A stretch of 43,580 nt of DNA from positions 1 through 43,580 of the forward strand of contig JAGVOW010000056.1 in assembly GCA_020052515.1 (NCBI GenBank), given 5' to 3'. The notes under the pieces are model-generated. The model was not told the DNA's origin. It worked only from the letters and a program-made list of their open reading frames with translations, and did not search any database. Below, one piece after another: positions 83 to 10,226 of this stretch (position 1 is the stretch's first letter; the number at the start of each line of letters is the position of its first letter). The position numbers and the translations under genes were made by a program. Source of the stretch: Brevinematales bacterium (GTDB lineage: Bacteria; Spirochaetota; Brevinematia; Brevinematales; JAOACQ01).

Positions 83-967
83 CTACCCGGCCCCCGACAC
101 GGAGACATCGCCCATAAAGAGGTAATACTGACGGTCGCTTATTTTTACCAGGTCATAAAAATCCCCGCTGACTTCGCTGAAAGGGTGACGCTCCAGAAAG
201 AGAGAAATATTTTTTCCCAGTTTCTGCGGCAGGCTTCCCATCAGGCTTTCCTGTACGGATTGGCCGATTTTGAGGTCTTTGGTCATTTGCTGGTTTTGTT
301 CATTTACAATCTGCCGATTAATAAAGTCCTGTTTTTTGAGCCGATAGACTACAGAATGCAGAATAATACCAACCAGCATATAAATAGGCCCATTCACAAT
401 TACATGTTGGTATTCTATAGCTTTTATATCATTTTTGAATAGAATATTTAAAACAATATGAAGAGGAAAAAGCAGGGAAACAAAGAGTGTTGTCTTGAGT
501 GTGTTGGCGTTGGAAAATGAGTAAACAATGAGAATGCACGCCATCACAAGAGACGCCACCTTAACGTCATTTCCCATAGCGGCTGCCATGTAAGTAATAT
601 AATAGACTAGAAAAGCAAGTGATGCGGTTCCTAAAAACAAGCGGTATTTTTGTAAGGCGTGAAATCGGGTTAAAATAAATAAAAATAACAAGATAACTGG
701 AAGTCCGATTCGGGCGAAAATCAGCAAATTAAAATGGGGGATGAAAAAAGGGACATTTAAATCTACTAATATTATAAGCAATAAAGAAACCGGGCCAAAA
801 AACAGAAGTAGATTTCTGGCAAAAACAGCGCTTCTCTCGTTCATTTCGTCCTGAAAAGCCGCTTTGTGTTTTTGAAACAGCTCTTTATCCTGCTGTTTCT
901 TCTGCTTTTTCTCTTCCTTACTTACCTTACTGTTCTGTTCTGTTCTGTTCTGTTCTGTTCTGTTCAT
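83..967 (-). CDS. Membrane-anchored SpoIIE/PP2C-type serine phosphatase, interrupted at catalytic motif
   Basis: The basic, Lys/Gln-rich N-terminus is followed by several hydrophobic segments (about residues 48-190), a short coiled linker, and the start of a SpoIIE-type PP2C domain (IGQSVQESLMGSLPQ, then VSGDFYDL near residue 268 and FMGDVSVSG near 286). Family members dephosphorylate anti-anti-sigma or related proteins, and the membrane part would sense a signal. The start is supported by an AGGGGGT Shine-Dalgarno five bases upstream. The reading frame hits TAG at 83-85, in the middle of the metal-binding GDVSG-like motif, so most of the phosphatase domain is missing. The same frame is open again to the window edge (IPQGQGHEIPHLFLKNTVID...), which suggests a nonsense mutation or an assembly error, not a natural end. 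A pentanucleotide repeat follows the start codon. The histidine-kinase-like ATPase on the other strand is a plausible partner (inference). Confidence 0.75.
   Translation of the reverse strand: MNRTEQNRTEQNSKVSKEEKKQKKQQDKELFQKHKAAFQDEMNERSAVFARNLLLFFGPVSLLLIILVDLNVPFFIPHFNLLIFARIGLPVILLFLFILTRFHALQKYRLFLGTASLAFLVYYITYMAAAMGNDVKVASLVMACILIVYSFSNANTLKTTLFVSLLFPLHIVLNILFKNDIKAIEYQHVIVNGPIYMLVGIILHSVVYRLKKQDFINRQIVNEQNQQMTKDLKIGQSVQESLMGSLPQKLGKNISLFLERHPFSEVSGDFYDLVKISDRQYYLFMGDVSVSGAG
931..965. repeat. Seven perfect TGTTC repeats inside the start of the phosphatase gene
   Basis: Seven uninterrupted copies of TGTTC (GAACA on the coding strand) begin at the last base of the ATG and encode NRTEQNRTEQN. 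With seven copies the frame runs on into the gene. With six the next codon after CAG is TAA, and with eight TAA follows two codons after the repeat. This layout is typical of slipped-strand contingency loci. Confidence 0.95.
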
Positions 968-1012
968 ATATTACCCCCTATTCATAAAATTGAAAGTTTG
1001 TCAAAAGATTTC

Positions 1013-1216: not shown

Positions 1217-1885
1217 ATGGACAAACCTGCTATCAACAAAAAGGAAGGGAAAACTTCTATTTCCTTCTTCACTCTGGATGACAACGTAGAAGAAATGGTA
1301 AGAAGCGAGATTAGCGAAGTTTTCAATCATAATAAAAATATGAATATTGAAGACAACACCAAAGATATGGTTTACACCTGCGTAAAAGAATTGATGGTAA
1401 ATGCCTCAAAGACCAATATCAAAAAAACTTTTTTCATTGAAGCAAAGATCGATGAGGCGGACAAACCGCTTTATCACAGTGCCATCAAAAACATGAAGAA
1501 ACTGATGCGCGAAAATTATATGGCTTATATCCGCGAAAAACTTAAGAAGTATAACCACAATGTAGAAGTATCCATTGAAGAAAAAGACAAGGGCATTGTC
1601 ATTGTCGTAAAAAACCCGCTTTCTCTTTTAGAAGAGGAAGAGAAAAATATCCGTGAGACCTTGAAACAGGCCATGGAAGACGACACTTCCGACATTGCCC
1701 TTTATTATAATGACAGCGATGAAAACAAGGAAGGGGCTGGATTGGGCCTGTTTTTGATCGTCAACATATTAAAAGACATGAAAATCCACCCTTCTTATTT
1801 CAGGATAGGCGTAGTGAATGATAATACCATCGCGCGAATAGAAATTCCTTTATCTCAAGACTACGTTGGGGTTAGAGAGATTTGA
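1217..1885 (+). CDS. Histidine-kinase-fold ATPase (possible anti-sigma/RsbW-like kinase)
   Basis: This 222-residue soluble protein carries an HATPase_c N-box (VKELMVNASKTN, Asn near 62) and a C-terminal G-box (EGAGLGLFLIVNIL). It has no phosphoacceptor His domain, receiver or membrane segment, so it is either a stand-alone serine-kinase-type ATPase like anti-sigma factors or a regulator of related fold. The middle region (about 70-160) is long and charged compared with RsbW, which is normally near 150 residues. The start follows an AGGGGG Shine-Dalgarno. It is divergent from the SpoIIE-like phosphatase. Phosphatase plus anti-sigma-type kinase is the classic partner-switching pair, but no STAS-domain partner is visible in the window. 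Confidence 0.7.
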   Translation: MDKPAINKKEGKTSISFFTLDDNVEEMVRSEISEVFNHNKNMNIEDNTKDMVYTCVKELMVNASKTNIKKTFFIEAKIDEADKPLYHSAIKNMKKLMRENYMAYIREKLKKYNHNVEVSIEEKDKGIVIVVKNPLSLLEEEEKNIRETLKQAMEDDTSDIALYYNDSDENKEGAGLGLFLIVNILKDMKIHPSYFRIGVVNDNTIARIEIPLSQDYVGVREI

Positions 1886-3851: not shown

Positions 3852-5423
3852 TTACTTTTCCACACTCACTTCCTTCAATGGATGCAGGTCCAGGATATTA
3901 TCATATACACCTTTGACTGTTCCTTTGATCGCATGGACACGCACATAAGTATAAATAGGAATAATAGGAGATTCTTCAACCAGGATCTTCTCCGCTTCAT
4001 AAAAAATTTTCATCCGTTGAGAAGGATTCTTTTCTCTCTTAGCCTTTTGAATCAGCTCATCGTATTTCTTATTGGACCAGCCTGTTTGATTGTTCCCGCC
4101 ATCAGTTACAAACATATCCAAGAATGTATTAGGGTCGACATAATCCCCGATCCATCCCGCTCTGGATAGATCATAATCCAATGATTGAACTCTCTGTAGA
4201 TACACTTTCCACTCTTGATTTTCCAGGGCAACATCAATATTCAGCTCTTTTTTCCACATCTGCTGGATGGCTTCCGCGATCTTTTTATGATCTTCCATTG
4301 TATTGTAAAGAATCGTAATGGAAGGGAAGCCTTTTCCTTCCGGATAGCCCGCCTGAGCCAGAAACTTCCTCGCTTTTGCCGGATTTTCCTTGTCTCCCGC
4401 ATAGCCCTTGTAATTGGGCATGGATTCCGGAACAAAGCCATAGTTTGGAATCTGCCCGGCCTTTCCAATGTATTTACAGATGTAGTCACGATTAATGGAT
4501 AATGACAAAGCTTTTCTGACCCTTACGTCAGACAACGCTTTGTTTGCATTTATATGAATACGGTAAAAATAAGTCCCCAAAAACGGAGCCTTGTGAAACT
4601 CCGGCTTTTGCTTCATTTGATCCATTCTTTCGGAAGGAATCGTATCGATCCAGTCGAGTTCATTATTGAGAAACATTTCCAGGGCGCTGGATGCGTCTTC
4701 ATAGGCATAAAAATAAACGGTGTCCAATTTTACTTTTTCCCTATCCCAGTAAGTAAGCGATTTAACCAGTTTAATGTGATCCTTTGGGAACCATTCTTTC
4801 AAAACAAAAGGCCCATTCCCCACAATGTTTTGAGGAAGGATCCATTTATCCGACCCCGCCTTTTCAATCACATGCCTGGGCACGGGAAGATAAGTTTGAA
4901 AAGAAAGAAGTGAGATAAAATAAGGCGTCGGATTCTCCAGAGTCACCTGAAGAGTAGTTTTATCTATTGCTTTAATACCAACCTCTTCCGCCTTTACCAG
5001 CTTTTTTGTATAATTTTGCGCGTTCTTTATGTACCAGAGCTGATAGGCATACTCTGAGGCTGTTTCAGGAGAAAGCGCGCGAAGCCAGGAATACCGAAAT
5101 GTTTCGGCGTCAATAGACACGCCGTCTGACCAGGCAGCATTTGTCCTCAAATGAAAAGTATAAACCAGTCCGCCGGAAGAAACTTCCCACTTCTGAGCCA
5201 CGCCCGGAATGGGAGATAAATTGGTGGGATTGTAGGCGGTCAAACCCTCGAATATCTGCATCGCGAGTTTGAACTCCGGCACCCCTGTCATAATGGCGGG
5301 ATCCAGCGTCTGCGGCTCAGTGCCATTATTGAATCGTAGAGTCATTCCCTCGTTTTTTGCTTTTCCGCAGGAAAAGAATAAAAAAACAACCAAAACTAAT
5401 AATAATCCTTTTGCTAATCGCAT
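3852..5423 (-). CDS. Oligopeptide ABC transporter substrate-binding lipoprotein (OppA type)
   Basis: A solute-binding protein of family 5 (peptide/nickel class), about 523 residues, with a lipoprotein signal peptide (LLLVLVVFLFFSC). Typical family landmarks are NGTEPQTLDPA near the mature N-terminus, LRTNAAWSDG, VGNGPFVLKEW, SLSINRDYI and DYDLSRAGWIGDYVDPNTFLD. It is predicted to bind peptides outside the cytoplasmic membrane and deliver them to an Opp permease; no permease or ATPase gene is adjacent. The ATG at 5423 is preferred over an in-frame TTG at 5429 because GGAG lies six bases before the ATG. The stop codon of the upstream HEAT-like gene lies just before this start, so translation may be coupled. 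Confidence 0.9.
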   Translation of the reverse strand: MRLAKGLLLVLVVFLFFSCGKAKNEGMTLRFNNGTEPQTLDPAIMTGVPEFKLAMQIFEGLTAYNPTNLSPIPGVAQKWEVSSGGLVYTFHLRTNAAWSDGVSIDAETFRYSWLRALSPETASEYAYQLWYIKNAQNYTKKLVKAEEVGIKAIDKTTLQVTLENPTPYFISLLSFQTYLPVPRHVIEKAGSDKWILPQNIVGNGPFVLKEWFPKDHIKLVKSLTYWDREKVKLDTVYFYAYEDASSALEMFLNNELDWIDTIPSERMDQMKQKPEFHKAPFLGTYFYRIHINANKALSDVRVRKALSLSINRDYICKYIGKAGQIPNYGFVPESMPNYKGYAGDKENPAKARKFLAQAGYPEGKGFPSITILYNTMEDHKKIAEAIQQMWKKELNIDVALENQEWKVYLQRVQSLDYDLSRAGWIGDYVDPNTFLDMFVTDGGNNQTGWSNKKYDELIQKAKREKNPSQRMKIFYEAEKILVEESPIIPIYTYVRVHAIKGTVKGVYDNILDLHPLKEVSVEK

Positions 5424-6661: not shown

Positions 6662-9130
6662 TCATTTATTATTAAAAATGGTTATCTTTTTACTTCTGAT
6701 TTCTATTTTTTTAGCACTATCAATATAGCCGCAATAGATAGCATTATTACCATGATTTAAAAAGACTTTCATAGTATATGGCGAAGTCGGTTCGATTTTT
6801 ACCAGTTTACTTATAGTTTTAGTTTTACTTTTACCCTTTTTTGTAGTTGAAGTTGTAGTGGTAGTTATTTTTTTATAAGTATATTTAAATTTATAGGTTC
6901 TCGCGTTTACTTTTACATACAGATTATTCAGATCGATTTGTTTATCTGCTGAAAACAGAACATCCAGAGGATTAAAATTCTGTTTATCTATTGTAAATCC
7001 AACATTCAAAGAGTTTGTGCTCACTGAAATATTATCGATCGGCTCGATGATATTAATGACGTATTGATTATCAAGAACGGCTTCAATATTGTTTTTAGCA
7101 AGCATTTTATTTGCCAGAAAATAATCGAATACATTTTTTCTATAAAATAATTTATCATACTGTTCTAAGTCATATAGTGTAAAACCTTTCGCTATTTTAG
7201 TAGTTTTGACAATCTCTCTTGGACAATCATAATATCCGAAATTGTCCTGAAAGAAGAATGTTTTGTCATCAAATAACAACTTAATATAATTATAGCTACG
7301 TGCATTGAAGATAATCAATTTATTATTGGCATTTTTCGCGACGATATACTTTCCGGTATTTTTATTCGCCGATGTGCTGAACGGCTTCATTTCGGAGATA
7401 TCTTCTATTTCGTTTAAATTTGTTATGATTTCTCCCAGATAGTTTCTGACCGACATGGTATCATTGTTTTTTTTCACTAATAGGAACCCGGGATTTGGAG
7501 TAAAACAGACGGTTGCTATGTCATCATTGTATTTATTCGTAATATAGCCTTTCATAGACCATAACTGGTAAGTTTTATCCGACGATTCTGTCAGGAAAAA
7601 CTTGCTGTCCGTTGATACTTGAATGGACTTTATTTCATAGGCGAGGTTTGTATAAATAAATTTTGCCTTCCCGCCGAGGCTCCAGATTTTCAAAGTTTTA
7701 TCCTTTGAAGCGGACAGGATGTTGTTGCCAATTGGAGTCACAGCCAGGGCGGTAATCTGGTTGTCATGGGCTTTAAATGTCCTGAGGAAATTACCGGCTG
7801 AATCCCATGTCGTGATATGATAATCCGGCAATCCGGTAAATATCTGTGAATCGACGGGGGAGACAGTAAAACAATCCACAGCCCTGTTCCCGTTAATTGA
7901 ACCAAGTAATCTCCCGCCCATACTCCAGACGTCTAACTTATTTTCCTCATCCGCGGTGACGATTTTATTATCAGGGGTTATGATGATCTTTTCAGCCGGT
8001 TTCTTTAATCCCCGTATAGTACGAATTATTTCGCCTGTAGTATTCCATATTTTGATAGAATTATCATCCCAGGCGGTAAAAATAGTTCTTAAGTCAGGGG
8101 ATGCCGCTATAGCCGATATCTGGGAATTTTGAAAGGATAAAGTTTTCACTAAATAACCATTAGTGTACCAGATTTTTATCGTATCATCGGCGGACGCAGA
8201 TATAAAATTTTCGCCGTTAGGCAATAATTGAATATCTCGTACAATACCTTTATGGTTTCTCAAATTTTTCACTATATTTCCATTGGTATTCCATATTATA
8301 ATTGAATTATCAGCGGAACCTGAAATAATTGTTTGATTGTTTTTTGTTAAAGCCAAGCTTTTGACATAATCAGTATGCCCGATGAATCTTTTAACAAGTG
8401 TTCCGTCTCTGGAAAATAGTTTAATGATCCCATCAGAATAACCGGCAACGATGTGCTGACCGTCTTCACTCACGGCAAGGGATTCCACATAGTTTCCATC
8501 AGAATTCTCTTCCTTGATAGTCGATAATAAAGCGCCCCATGTGGACCAGATTTTTATAGTGCCATCCCAGGAAGCAGATAGAATTTCCTTAAATGGGAAG
8601 GACGAAGTTACTTTGATCTTGCTGACGGCATCATCGTGCGCCTGAATATTGTTCAAGAGATTTCCATAGGGATCCCAGATTTTGATGGTTTTATCTTTTG
8701 ATCCGGATACGAAAAAACCTCCGCCAGGCTCCACATCTAAAGAAGTTATTTCCGCGTTATGACCTATGACTGTCCTGTATTTAATACCGTCAAATGTCCA
8801 TATCTGGATTGTTTTATCAGAAAGCCCGGCAATAATAAAGTTGCCGTATGGATTAAACGCGACGGCATTAACTATCGCACCTGTATTTATAGATTTAACA
8901 AATGTCCCGTCGGCCAGCCAGATTTTTATCGTTTTATCAAAAGAGCCGGTAATAATAAACCTGGAATCCGTAGTCACCGCTAAACAACCCACAGCCCTCT
9001 GATGGCCGCTTTTTATGATGGCTTGAGTAGATTTTCCCCTTTCATAAGACGTATAGTCAATCCTGGTAAAATTCGAACAGCCGGATAGTAAAAACAAAAT
9101 TAATATTAAGGCTCTATTAAAATTCTTCAT
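6662..9130 (-). CDS. WD40 beta-propeller lipoprotein (caspase-associated WD40 type, without caspase)
   Basis: The chosen ATG gives a good lipoprotein signal (NRALILILFLLSGC); a frame extension upstream lacks it. About 14 WD40-type repeats follow (for example FIITGSFDKTIKIW, FFVSGSKDKTIKIW, NILSASKDKTLKIW), enough for two seven-bladed propellers. After the propellers comes a block (FFFQDNFGYYDCPRE ... LYDLEQYDKLFYRKNVFDYFLAN, about 640-670). It resembles the GYY...FYRP linker of bacterial caspase/WD40 proteins. An Ig-like segment follows (VINIIEPIDNISVSTNSLNV), then a Thr/Lys-rich loop. The protein ends where a C14 caspase domain would be expected, so it is probably a scaffold or sensor, not a protease. 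It overlaps the upstream gene by 14 bases and is the last gene of the eight-gene minus-strand locus. Confidence 0.85.
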   Translation of the reverse strand: MKNFNRALILILFLLSGCSNFTRIDYTSYERGKSTQAIIKSGHQRAVGCLAVTTDSRFIITGSFDKTIKIWLADGTFVKSINTGAIVNAVAFNPYGNFIIAGLSDKTIQIWTFDGIKYRTVIGHNAEITSLDVEPGGGFFVSGSKDKTIKIWDPYGNLLNNIQAHDDAVSKIKVTSSFPFKEILSASWDGTIKIWSTWGALLSTIKEENSDGNYVESLAVSEDGQHIVAGYSDGIIKLFSRDGTLVKRFIGHTDYVKSLALTKNNQTIISGSADNSIIIWNTNGNIVKNLRNHKGIVRDIQLLPNGENFISASADDTIKIWYTNGYLVKTLSFQNSQISAIAASPDLRTIFTAWDDNSIKIWNTTGEIIRTIRGLKKPAEKIIITPDNKIVTADEENKLDVWSMGGRLLGSINGNRAVDCFTVSPVDSQIFTGLPDYHITTWDSAGNFLRTFKAHDNQITALAVTPIGNNILSASKDKTLKIWSLGGKAKFIYTNLAYEIKSIQVSTDSKFFLTESSDKTYQLWSMKGYITNKYNDDIATVCFTPNPGFLLVKKNNDTMSVRNYLGEIITNLNEIEDISEMKPFSTSANKNTGKYIVAKNANNKLIIFNARSYNYIKLLFDDKTFFFQDNFGYYDCPREIVKTTKIAKGFTLYDLEQYDKLFYRKNVFDYFLANKMLAKNNIEAVLDNQYVINIIEPIDNISVSTNSLNVGFTIDKQNFNPLDVLFSADKQIDLNNLYVKVNARTYKFKYTYKKITTTTTSTTKKGKSKTKTISKLVKIEPTSPYTMKVFLNHGNNAIYCGYIDSAKKIEIRSKKITIFNNK

Positions 9131-10226
9131 AATTATCAAAATGCTCGCTATCAAAAAGTATGATTTCATAACCCGTTTCACGATAAGTATTGTCTGAACT
9201 ATTAAATGAGTTAGTCAGAATATTGACCATCAAGTCTGAAAATTGCTGGTATTTTAAATTAATCATTTGACTGTCAAAATCATCATTTTCCTGGGCTTTT
9301 TTAAAATTTACCAGAGCGTTGGATATCGCTTCCACATTAGCGGTACAGTTGTATAATTTAAAATTATTTAATCCCAGGTAATAGTAACAGTTATTCTTTT
9401 TGAATGGATTGTCTTTATTTTTGTTATAAGTGTCATTTATACCAGGTTGTATATTATCCATTAAATATTGCATTGTAAAATTCCCAAGCTCATAAAACCT
9501 TTCATTATATAATTTTCTGGAATCTTCAAAGACCTTGTAACAAAAGTTTTTGCTTTCTACCAGGTCAGTATATTTATTTTCCAGGATGGTTTTTAATTCT
9601 TCTTTGGTTTTGGAACTTTTCTTGTAATCCGATGGTCCAAAATCTTTCACTGTAATATAGATTTTTCTATGGTTAAAATTAGTAATTGCGATGTTTATAT
9701 TGAACACATTGGTCCTGATACTCTCAATGGTATCTTTGTTTTTATAGTTGGTAACAATAGTGTTTGATGTACCGGGAATGATTTCAGTATTGAAATATTT
9801 ATAATACTTCACTGGAGAAAAGAAAGCATTATTTGTCATGAAACTATTTGAAAGGACCGCATTGGATAACACAATGAGCGGCAGAATTCTATTTTCATCA
9901 AAAGATACGGTGTCAAAGACAGATATGATTCGCCTCGGATAGGGAGATAGCATATCAAATTTATCTAAAATCCCAAATTTATCAAAGGACTCCGACGGCA
10001 GCAGGAAGCATTTAAAACTGGAGTCGGAGTTTTTCTTTATTAGTTTGATTTTAGGAACCATACTGGAATTGGTGTTTGTATTACTGTCTTCAGAAAATTG
10101 AATAATTGAAAAATTTTCCTTTTGGACTATCGTAATAGCCCCATCCATCAAACTTATTTCATCAGAATACCCCAAAACGCTCAACATCAAGAAAAAAGAG
10201 ATTGTCAATATCATATTGTAACGCAT
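9117..10226 (-). CDS. Secreted protein of unknown function in the ABC/WD40 locus
   Basis: I do not recognise the family. The 369-residue product has a signal peptide (MILTISFFLMLSVLGYS) with no lipobox Cys. The N-terminal half is beta-rich, and the C-terminal half (about 210-350) is helical with a tetratricopeptide-like look (CYYYLGLNNFKLYNC, ALVNFKKAQENDD). The start has a strong AAGGAGGA Shine-Dalgarno. It lies 25 bases after the ABC ATPase stop and overlaps the start of the WD40 lipoprotein, so the two products are probably made together and may act together outside the cytoplasmic membrane. Confidence 0.7.
   Translation of the reverse strand: MRYNMILTISFFLMLSVLGYSDEISLMDGAITIVQKENFSIIQFSEDSNTNTNSSMVPKIKLIKKNSDSSFKCFLLPSESFDKFGILDKFDMLSPYPRRIISVFDTVSFDENRILPLIVLSNAVLSNSFMTNNAFFSPVKYYKYFNTEIIPGTSNTIVTNYKNKDTIESIRTNVFNINIAITNFNHRKIYITVKDFGPSDYKKSSKTKEELKTILENKYTDLVESKNFCYKVFEDSRKLYNERFYELGNFTMQYLMDNIQPGINDTYNKNKDNPFKKNNCYYYLGLNNFKLYNCTANVEAISNALVNFKKAQENDDFDSQMINLKYQQFSDLMVNILTNSFNSSDNTYRETGYEIILFDSEHFDNYEEF

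Follow-up and report, generated by a model that had tools for sequence, protein, structure and literature searches.

Does the pentanucleotide repeat that overlaps the start codon of a SpoIIE-type phosphatase gene in this genome turn that gene on and off, as a sequence-only reading of the locus had proposed? The window, i.e., the whole stretch of DNA analysed here (43,580 bp), is the complete contig C58 of a 2.6-Mb genome represented by 114 contigs. Genes of the same family on other contigs are referred to below by the contig that carries them.

Repeat Tract and Reading Frames

On the minus strand of the window, the ATG start codon (967-965) is followed by (GAACA)x7 at 965-931, the first G of the tract being the third base of the ATG, and then by GTAAGGTAAGTAAGG. 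TRF called the repeat at 930-965 with 7.2 copies and a 100% match, in agreement with the seven perfect units that had been read from the last base of the ATG. The sequence GAACAGAACAGAACA occurs only once in the 2.6-Mb genome, at this tract. A GGGGG run resembling a ribosome site is located 6 nt 5' of the ATG (974-978, minus strand). Recomputation of the reading frames showed that the gene is open with 1, 4, 7 or 10 units and that every other number within 1-12 leads to termination by codon 22. Six units (also three or nine) bring translation to a TAA at 927-929, the six-unit product being MNRTEQNRTEQ, and eight units (also two, five or 11) to a TAA at 922-924, the eight-unit product being MNRTEQNRTEQNRTVR; both stops are on the minus strand. 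The earlier claim that a gain or loss of one unit ends translation within three codons of the repeat was therefore borne out, and the same change ends translation by about codon 16 in C58, C48, C14 and C29.

Repeat statistics were computed on a sample of about 0.79 Mb of the same genome. Pentanucleotide runs of at least 18 bp were seen twice against 0.012 expected, and the expectation for runs as long as the C58 tract was 3e-13; the tract length is not due to chance. The two longest pentanucleotide runs of the sample are those of C58 and C48, both at the starts of family genes, and no other exceeds three units. A first-order shuffle contains about three times as many homopolymers of nine or more bases as the sample does. 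C58 presents the anatomy of a contingency locus, namely a non-triplet unit in 5' coding sequence, an early stop upon unit change and excess length.

The Paralogue Family

A search of the genome with the window protein led to four paralogues that comprise the membrane region and the full SpoIIE domain, C25 (67% identity), C29 (56%), C48 (54%) and C14 (53%), and to two more, C107 and C72, matched in the phosphatase part only. The full-length paralogues match the Pfam SpoIIE profile (PF07228) with E-values of 1e-39 to 1e-42 and keep the GDFYD, GDVSGHG, TDG and DD motifs, and PDB relatives include SpoIIE of B. subtilis. The N-terminal membrane region matched no Pfam family, and an AlphaFold model of the family (five sequences) reached a pLDDT of 49, too poor to use.

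Alignment of the gene starts revealed a layout common to the window gene and its four full-length paralogues: a run of four to six G, a gap of about 5-6 nt, the ATG and then the tract, with the G run similarly spaced in 4/4 full-length paralogues. At least three of the four sister genes carry a pentanucleotide tract at the same place, where unit and number vary and position and period are constant. Specifically, C48 starts with ATGAACCGAACCGAACCGAAGAG (tract GAACCx3), C14 with ATGAACAGCACAGAACAGAAGAG (GAACA/GCACA/GAACA) and C29 with ATGAATCAAATCGAATCAAATCGAG (GAATC/AAATCx2), while C25 (ATGAACCGGATCGAGCAGAAG) has lost the tract and is in frame. In the assembled state only C48 is out of frame, the tract or start of C14, C29, C25 and C58 being in register with the rest of the gene.

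Synonymous distances between the paralogues are at least 2 or saturated in the membrane region, whereas the phosphatase part gave values of about 0.8-1.0. In the 92 bp 5' of the ATG, C48 and C14 are identical at 89/91 positions (L052 89-179, L053 8-99), against about 53% identity in the coding sequence of the membrane region. The leader has therefore been copied recently between C48 and C14, and the adjoining tracts nevertheless differ. Differing units, near-saturated synonymous sites and like leaders would together fit repeated expansion and homogenisation at the tract site. No close orthologue of the membrane region was found among 60 relatives or in a scan of GTDB contigs, the other matches being at most weak and mainly in the phosphatase part, and the SpoIIE loci of relatives (L019-L047) yielded no start-proximal repeats. 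A start-like pattern at C24 was rejected as a chance match within a gene that reads as a methylase. G+C-rich inverted repeats of the CCCCCT..AGGGGG type (60-80 bp) are dispersed as hairpins, at 1012-1090 of the window, 5' of C25, C48, C14 and C29 and 3' of the C73 fragment described below; they may be terminators, mobile repeats or substrates for gene conversion.

Translation Start and the Out-of-frame Copy

The next in-frame ATG of the window gene (Met42, 842-844, minus strand) was rejected as the main start, because it is ATA in C29 and because the codons that precede it are under purifying selection. From the tract to Met42, dN is 0.12-0.29 and dS above 1.5 or saturated, with dN/dS at or below 0.08 where estimable, which argues that these codons are translated. 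C48 bears a GTG in its open frame right after the tract (203 in L052, ORF 203-1552), a codon that is not conserved, reading GTA in C58 and ATA in C14. Translated codons before Met42, the ATA of C29 and the unconserved GTG of C48 favour the upstream ATG, and the layout common to the paralogues supports it as well; the ATG before the tract is thus the likely translation start, as had been supposed.

With its three GAACC units, the ATG frame of C48 encodes only MNRTEPKSE before a stop. Its phosphatase frame, about 450 codons, begins just past the ATG, stays open as far as 1552 and would be continuous with that ATG at four (or one, or seven) units. In the phosphatase part, dN/dS between C48 and the other full-length copies is 0.08-0.10, close to the 0.06-0.08 obtained among the in-frame copies. 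This out-of-frame gene, with an intact ORF under purifying selection, is the best available evidence of reversible switching. C48 is located directly upstream of flgN-like, flgK, flgL, fliW, csrA, bactofilin and STAS genes (L052 203-7958), which were read from translations, the STAS gene by profile; flgK, flgL, fliW and csrA form a cluster for hook-associated flagellar functions.

Interruption of the Window Gene

The window gene itself is broken. Its 5' part at 100-967 (minus strand) encodes the membrane region and the phosphatase domain as far as GDVS, and is cut there by an insertion-sequence-like element, whose 99-bp end occupies 1-99 with the terminal TGTCGGGGGCCGGGTAGATTCCCC reading inward. 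The ORF at 83-967 runs into this end at the contig edge, and the stop at 83 was dismissed as a natural gene end, since it lies inside the element. Over exactly 99 bp, bases 1-99 match the end of contig C57 without a difference, and the inverted counterpart of TGTCGGGGGCCGGGTAGATTCCCC, TGTCCGGGGCCGGGTAGATTCCCC, is found at the start of contig C73 (bases 76-99). On the gene side the junction reads GGCGATG-TCTCCG and then the element, and in C73 the element is followed by TCTCCG-GACATGGTGTC. TCTCCG is the 6-bp target duplication, its left copy being at 100-105 of the window (minus strand) and its right copy at C73:100-105. Counting it once restores GATGTCTCCGGACATGG, a sequence present in the paralogues C29 and C72, so that the element is inserted in the GDVSGHG motif with a 6-bp duplication. 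Like an insertion sequence, it has a target duplication and terminal inverted repeats, TGTC(G/C)GGGGCCGGGTAGATTCCCC.

C57, C58 and C73 all end 99 bp into the element, as would be expected of a repeat collapsed in a k=99 assembly graph. C58 and C73 probably carry the two halves of one gene; besides C57, they hold the only matching left and right element ends in the bin, a pairing to be read with the caution that TCTCCG occurs in further paralogues too. Neither the transposase nor the body of the element was found in the bin, where one rve-domain gene, at C104, shows no linkage to the element ends, and searches among relatives, plasmids and viral contigs gave no useful match to the element. The same element is also inserted at C57:35566-35664 (L050 7567-7665), beside a gene that resembles the membrane part of an ABC transporter; no contig of the bin matched the other flank of this insertion.

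Alignment with C25 showed that the residues between FEA and KGF, among them TDGLYEA, are missing from the C73 half. The window ORF holds only the first 20 or so residues of the SpoIIE domain, keeping GDVS and missing the TDG and DD segments, and searched alone it matched no Pfam family at E<=0.001. It thus lacks the PF07228 match and the complete set of metal-binding aspartates that mark a SpoIIE-type PP2C phosphatase and that C25, C48, C14 and C29 all have. The metal ligands of B. subtilis SpoIIE are Asp628, Asp746 and Asp795 (PMC3517971), and the segments holding the equivalents of Asp746 and Asp795 are absent from the window copy. Judging from the assembled genome, this copy cannot act as a phosphatase. 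Because the insertion interrupts the gene and its probable 3' half is without TDG, slippage in C58 has no phosphatase to switch in the genome as assembled. The proposal of a switch at this gene therefore stands for the slippage anatomy, the gene family and the ATG start and is not supported for the C58 copy; a functional protein that switching could alter has to be sought in the sister genes, where the anatomy of C48 is consistent with an OFF state.

Proposed Switch and Alternative Explanations

We consider it fairly probable (about 60%) that the tract represents a start-proximal simple-sequence contingency switch of a small family of membrane-anchored SpoIIE/RsbU-type (PP2C) phosphatases; the family member in the window has the longest tract but is a dead copy. 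Replication slippage would add or remove one 5-bp unit and shift the reading frame. As a stop follows a few codons into either wrong frame, the number of repeats would decide whether the gene is ON or OFF. C48 would be OFF at three GAACC units and ON at four. C58 is in frame yet inactivated by the element in GDVSG; its 3' half has most likely lost the TDG segment as well, which would inactivate it a second time. The C58 tract is accordingly probably a relic of a switch and not a working one. Slippage is presumed here to proceed at a useful rate.

Three rival explanations compete with this reading. A doubtful but serious one is that no family member switches usefully: the coding sequence of MNRTEQ is inherently a short direct repeat, and the C58 tract may simply have drifted to seven units after the insertion. 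The sole perfect long tract indeed belongs to the interrupted copy, which is no longer under selection for switching, and the tracts of the other paralogues have just 3-4 units, are partly degenerate and are expected to slip slowly, with C25 doing without one. Such drift, however, does not account for C48 being out of frame despite its intact and conserved ORF, nor for distinct units in each paralogue at one position when long pentanucleotide runs are absent elsewhere in the sample. It is considerably less probable that the whole family is constitutively expressed, the OFF state of C48 stemming from an error in the assembly or consensus, or its translation starting at the GTG just past the tract. 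That GTG does lie in the open frame, but it is missing in C58 and C14 and a conserved G run precedes the upstream ATG, and a tract of 18 bp is well inside normal read length. Least probable of all is a repeat kept for its peptide, an RTEQN-type N-terminus, charged, flexible and cytoplasmic, which precedes the first membrane helix and would change in three-unit steps only and never switch, for although unit changes often preserve similar residues (NRTEQ, NSTEQ, NRTEP) and the post-tract codons are conserved, C25 does without the repeat, C29 encodes NQIESN and three-unit steps leave the out-of-frame C48 unexplained.

If the tracts do form a contingency switch, a bolder extension can be offered tentatively: in a single uncultured, flagellated bacterium, several membrane phosphatases of the SpoIIE type, paralogues of one another, may each be independently phase-variable through their start-proximal tracts, so that the cells of a clone would differ in the phosphatases that feed a shared partner-switching network. 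Random switching would then be combinatorial and act on the signalling layer, not on surface proteins.

Partner Switching and Neighbouring Genes

A partner-switching role of the phosphatases is plausible from their family, and they would be predicted to act on STAS proteins. Genome-wide, profile matches above cut-off comprised 19 SpoIIE-domain, nine STAS and four HATPase_c_2 proteins. The only link of these phosphatase genes to a STAS protein or RsbW-like ATPase is the STAS gene that follows C48 at a distance of 5.3 kb downstream. Control of a whole regulon by the tract, as the sequence-only reading had suggested, might follow from such a role. The divergent neighbour of the window gene (1217-1885, plus strand) encodes a protein weakly similar to GHKL/HATPase_c_2 (E = 0.001, below the Pfam cut-off), a possible signalling partner. 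Further along the window, 6665-9181 encodes a large protein in which WD40 repeats are numerous, with 5e-75 as the best Pfam E-value.

Comparison with Known Systems

Most known cases of repeat-driven phase variation concern the surface genes or the methyltransferases of pathogens adapted to a host; regulators account for a few, bvgS and mga being examples. In the opa genes of Neisseria, (CTCTT)n lies in the coding sequence of the leader peptide, in several paralogous ORFs per genome, and the number of units sets the frame (PMC3745409, PMC11475388). Like opa, the family presented here has pentanucleotide repeats where several paralogous reading frames of one genome begin. It differs in that opa encodes outer-membrane adhesins and uses one unit sequence, whereas these genes encode membrane phosphatases with units that differ between paralogues and with short tracts, read here from one assembled genome. 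The opa tracts vary at about 1e-3 per cell per generation (PMC3745409). Longer tracts switch faster (PMC11475388), and three-unit tracts would thus be slow and a seven-unit tract faster.

Repeat frameshifts that switch a regulator together with its regulon have been reported for bvgS of Bordetella pertussis (C6/C7 tract; PMC1891110) and mga of group A streptococci (8C/7C; PMC11868660). The present genes would share with these a repeat frameshift in a regulator, although bvgS and mga carry homopolymers in a sensor kinase and a transcription regulator, respectively, and here start-proximal pentanucleotides are found in a PP2C phosphatase family. A literature search returned no report of repeat-driven phase variation for a SpoIIE-type phosphatase, and a signalling-phosphatase family with such a switch would extend this kind of variation to partner-switching control. 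The case also carries a caution, as the most striking repeat of a window can belong to a dead gene copy, the useful evidence lying in its sister genes.

GAACA runs were also encountered in viral contigs. The contig IMGVR_UViG_3300001598_000130 (L128) contains at least nine GAACA units at 8182-9966, inside a gene that reads as a DNA cytosine methyltransferase, of which the ORFs 8182-8961 and 9181-9966 look like two parts; it is possibly a phase-variable phage methyltransferase. In a second viral contig from the same metagenome (IMGVR_UViG_3300001598_000042, L132), a GAACA run of about 12 units is located at or beside an ATG (3863-3882).
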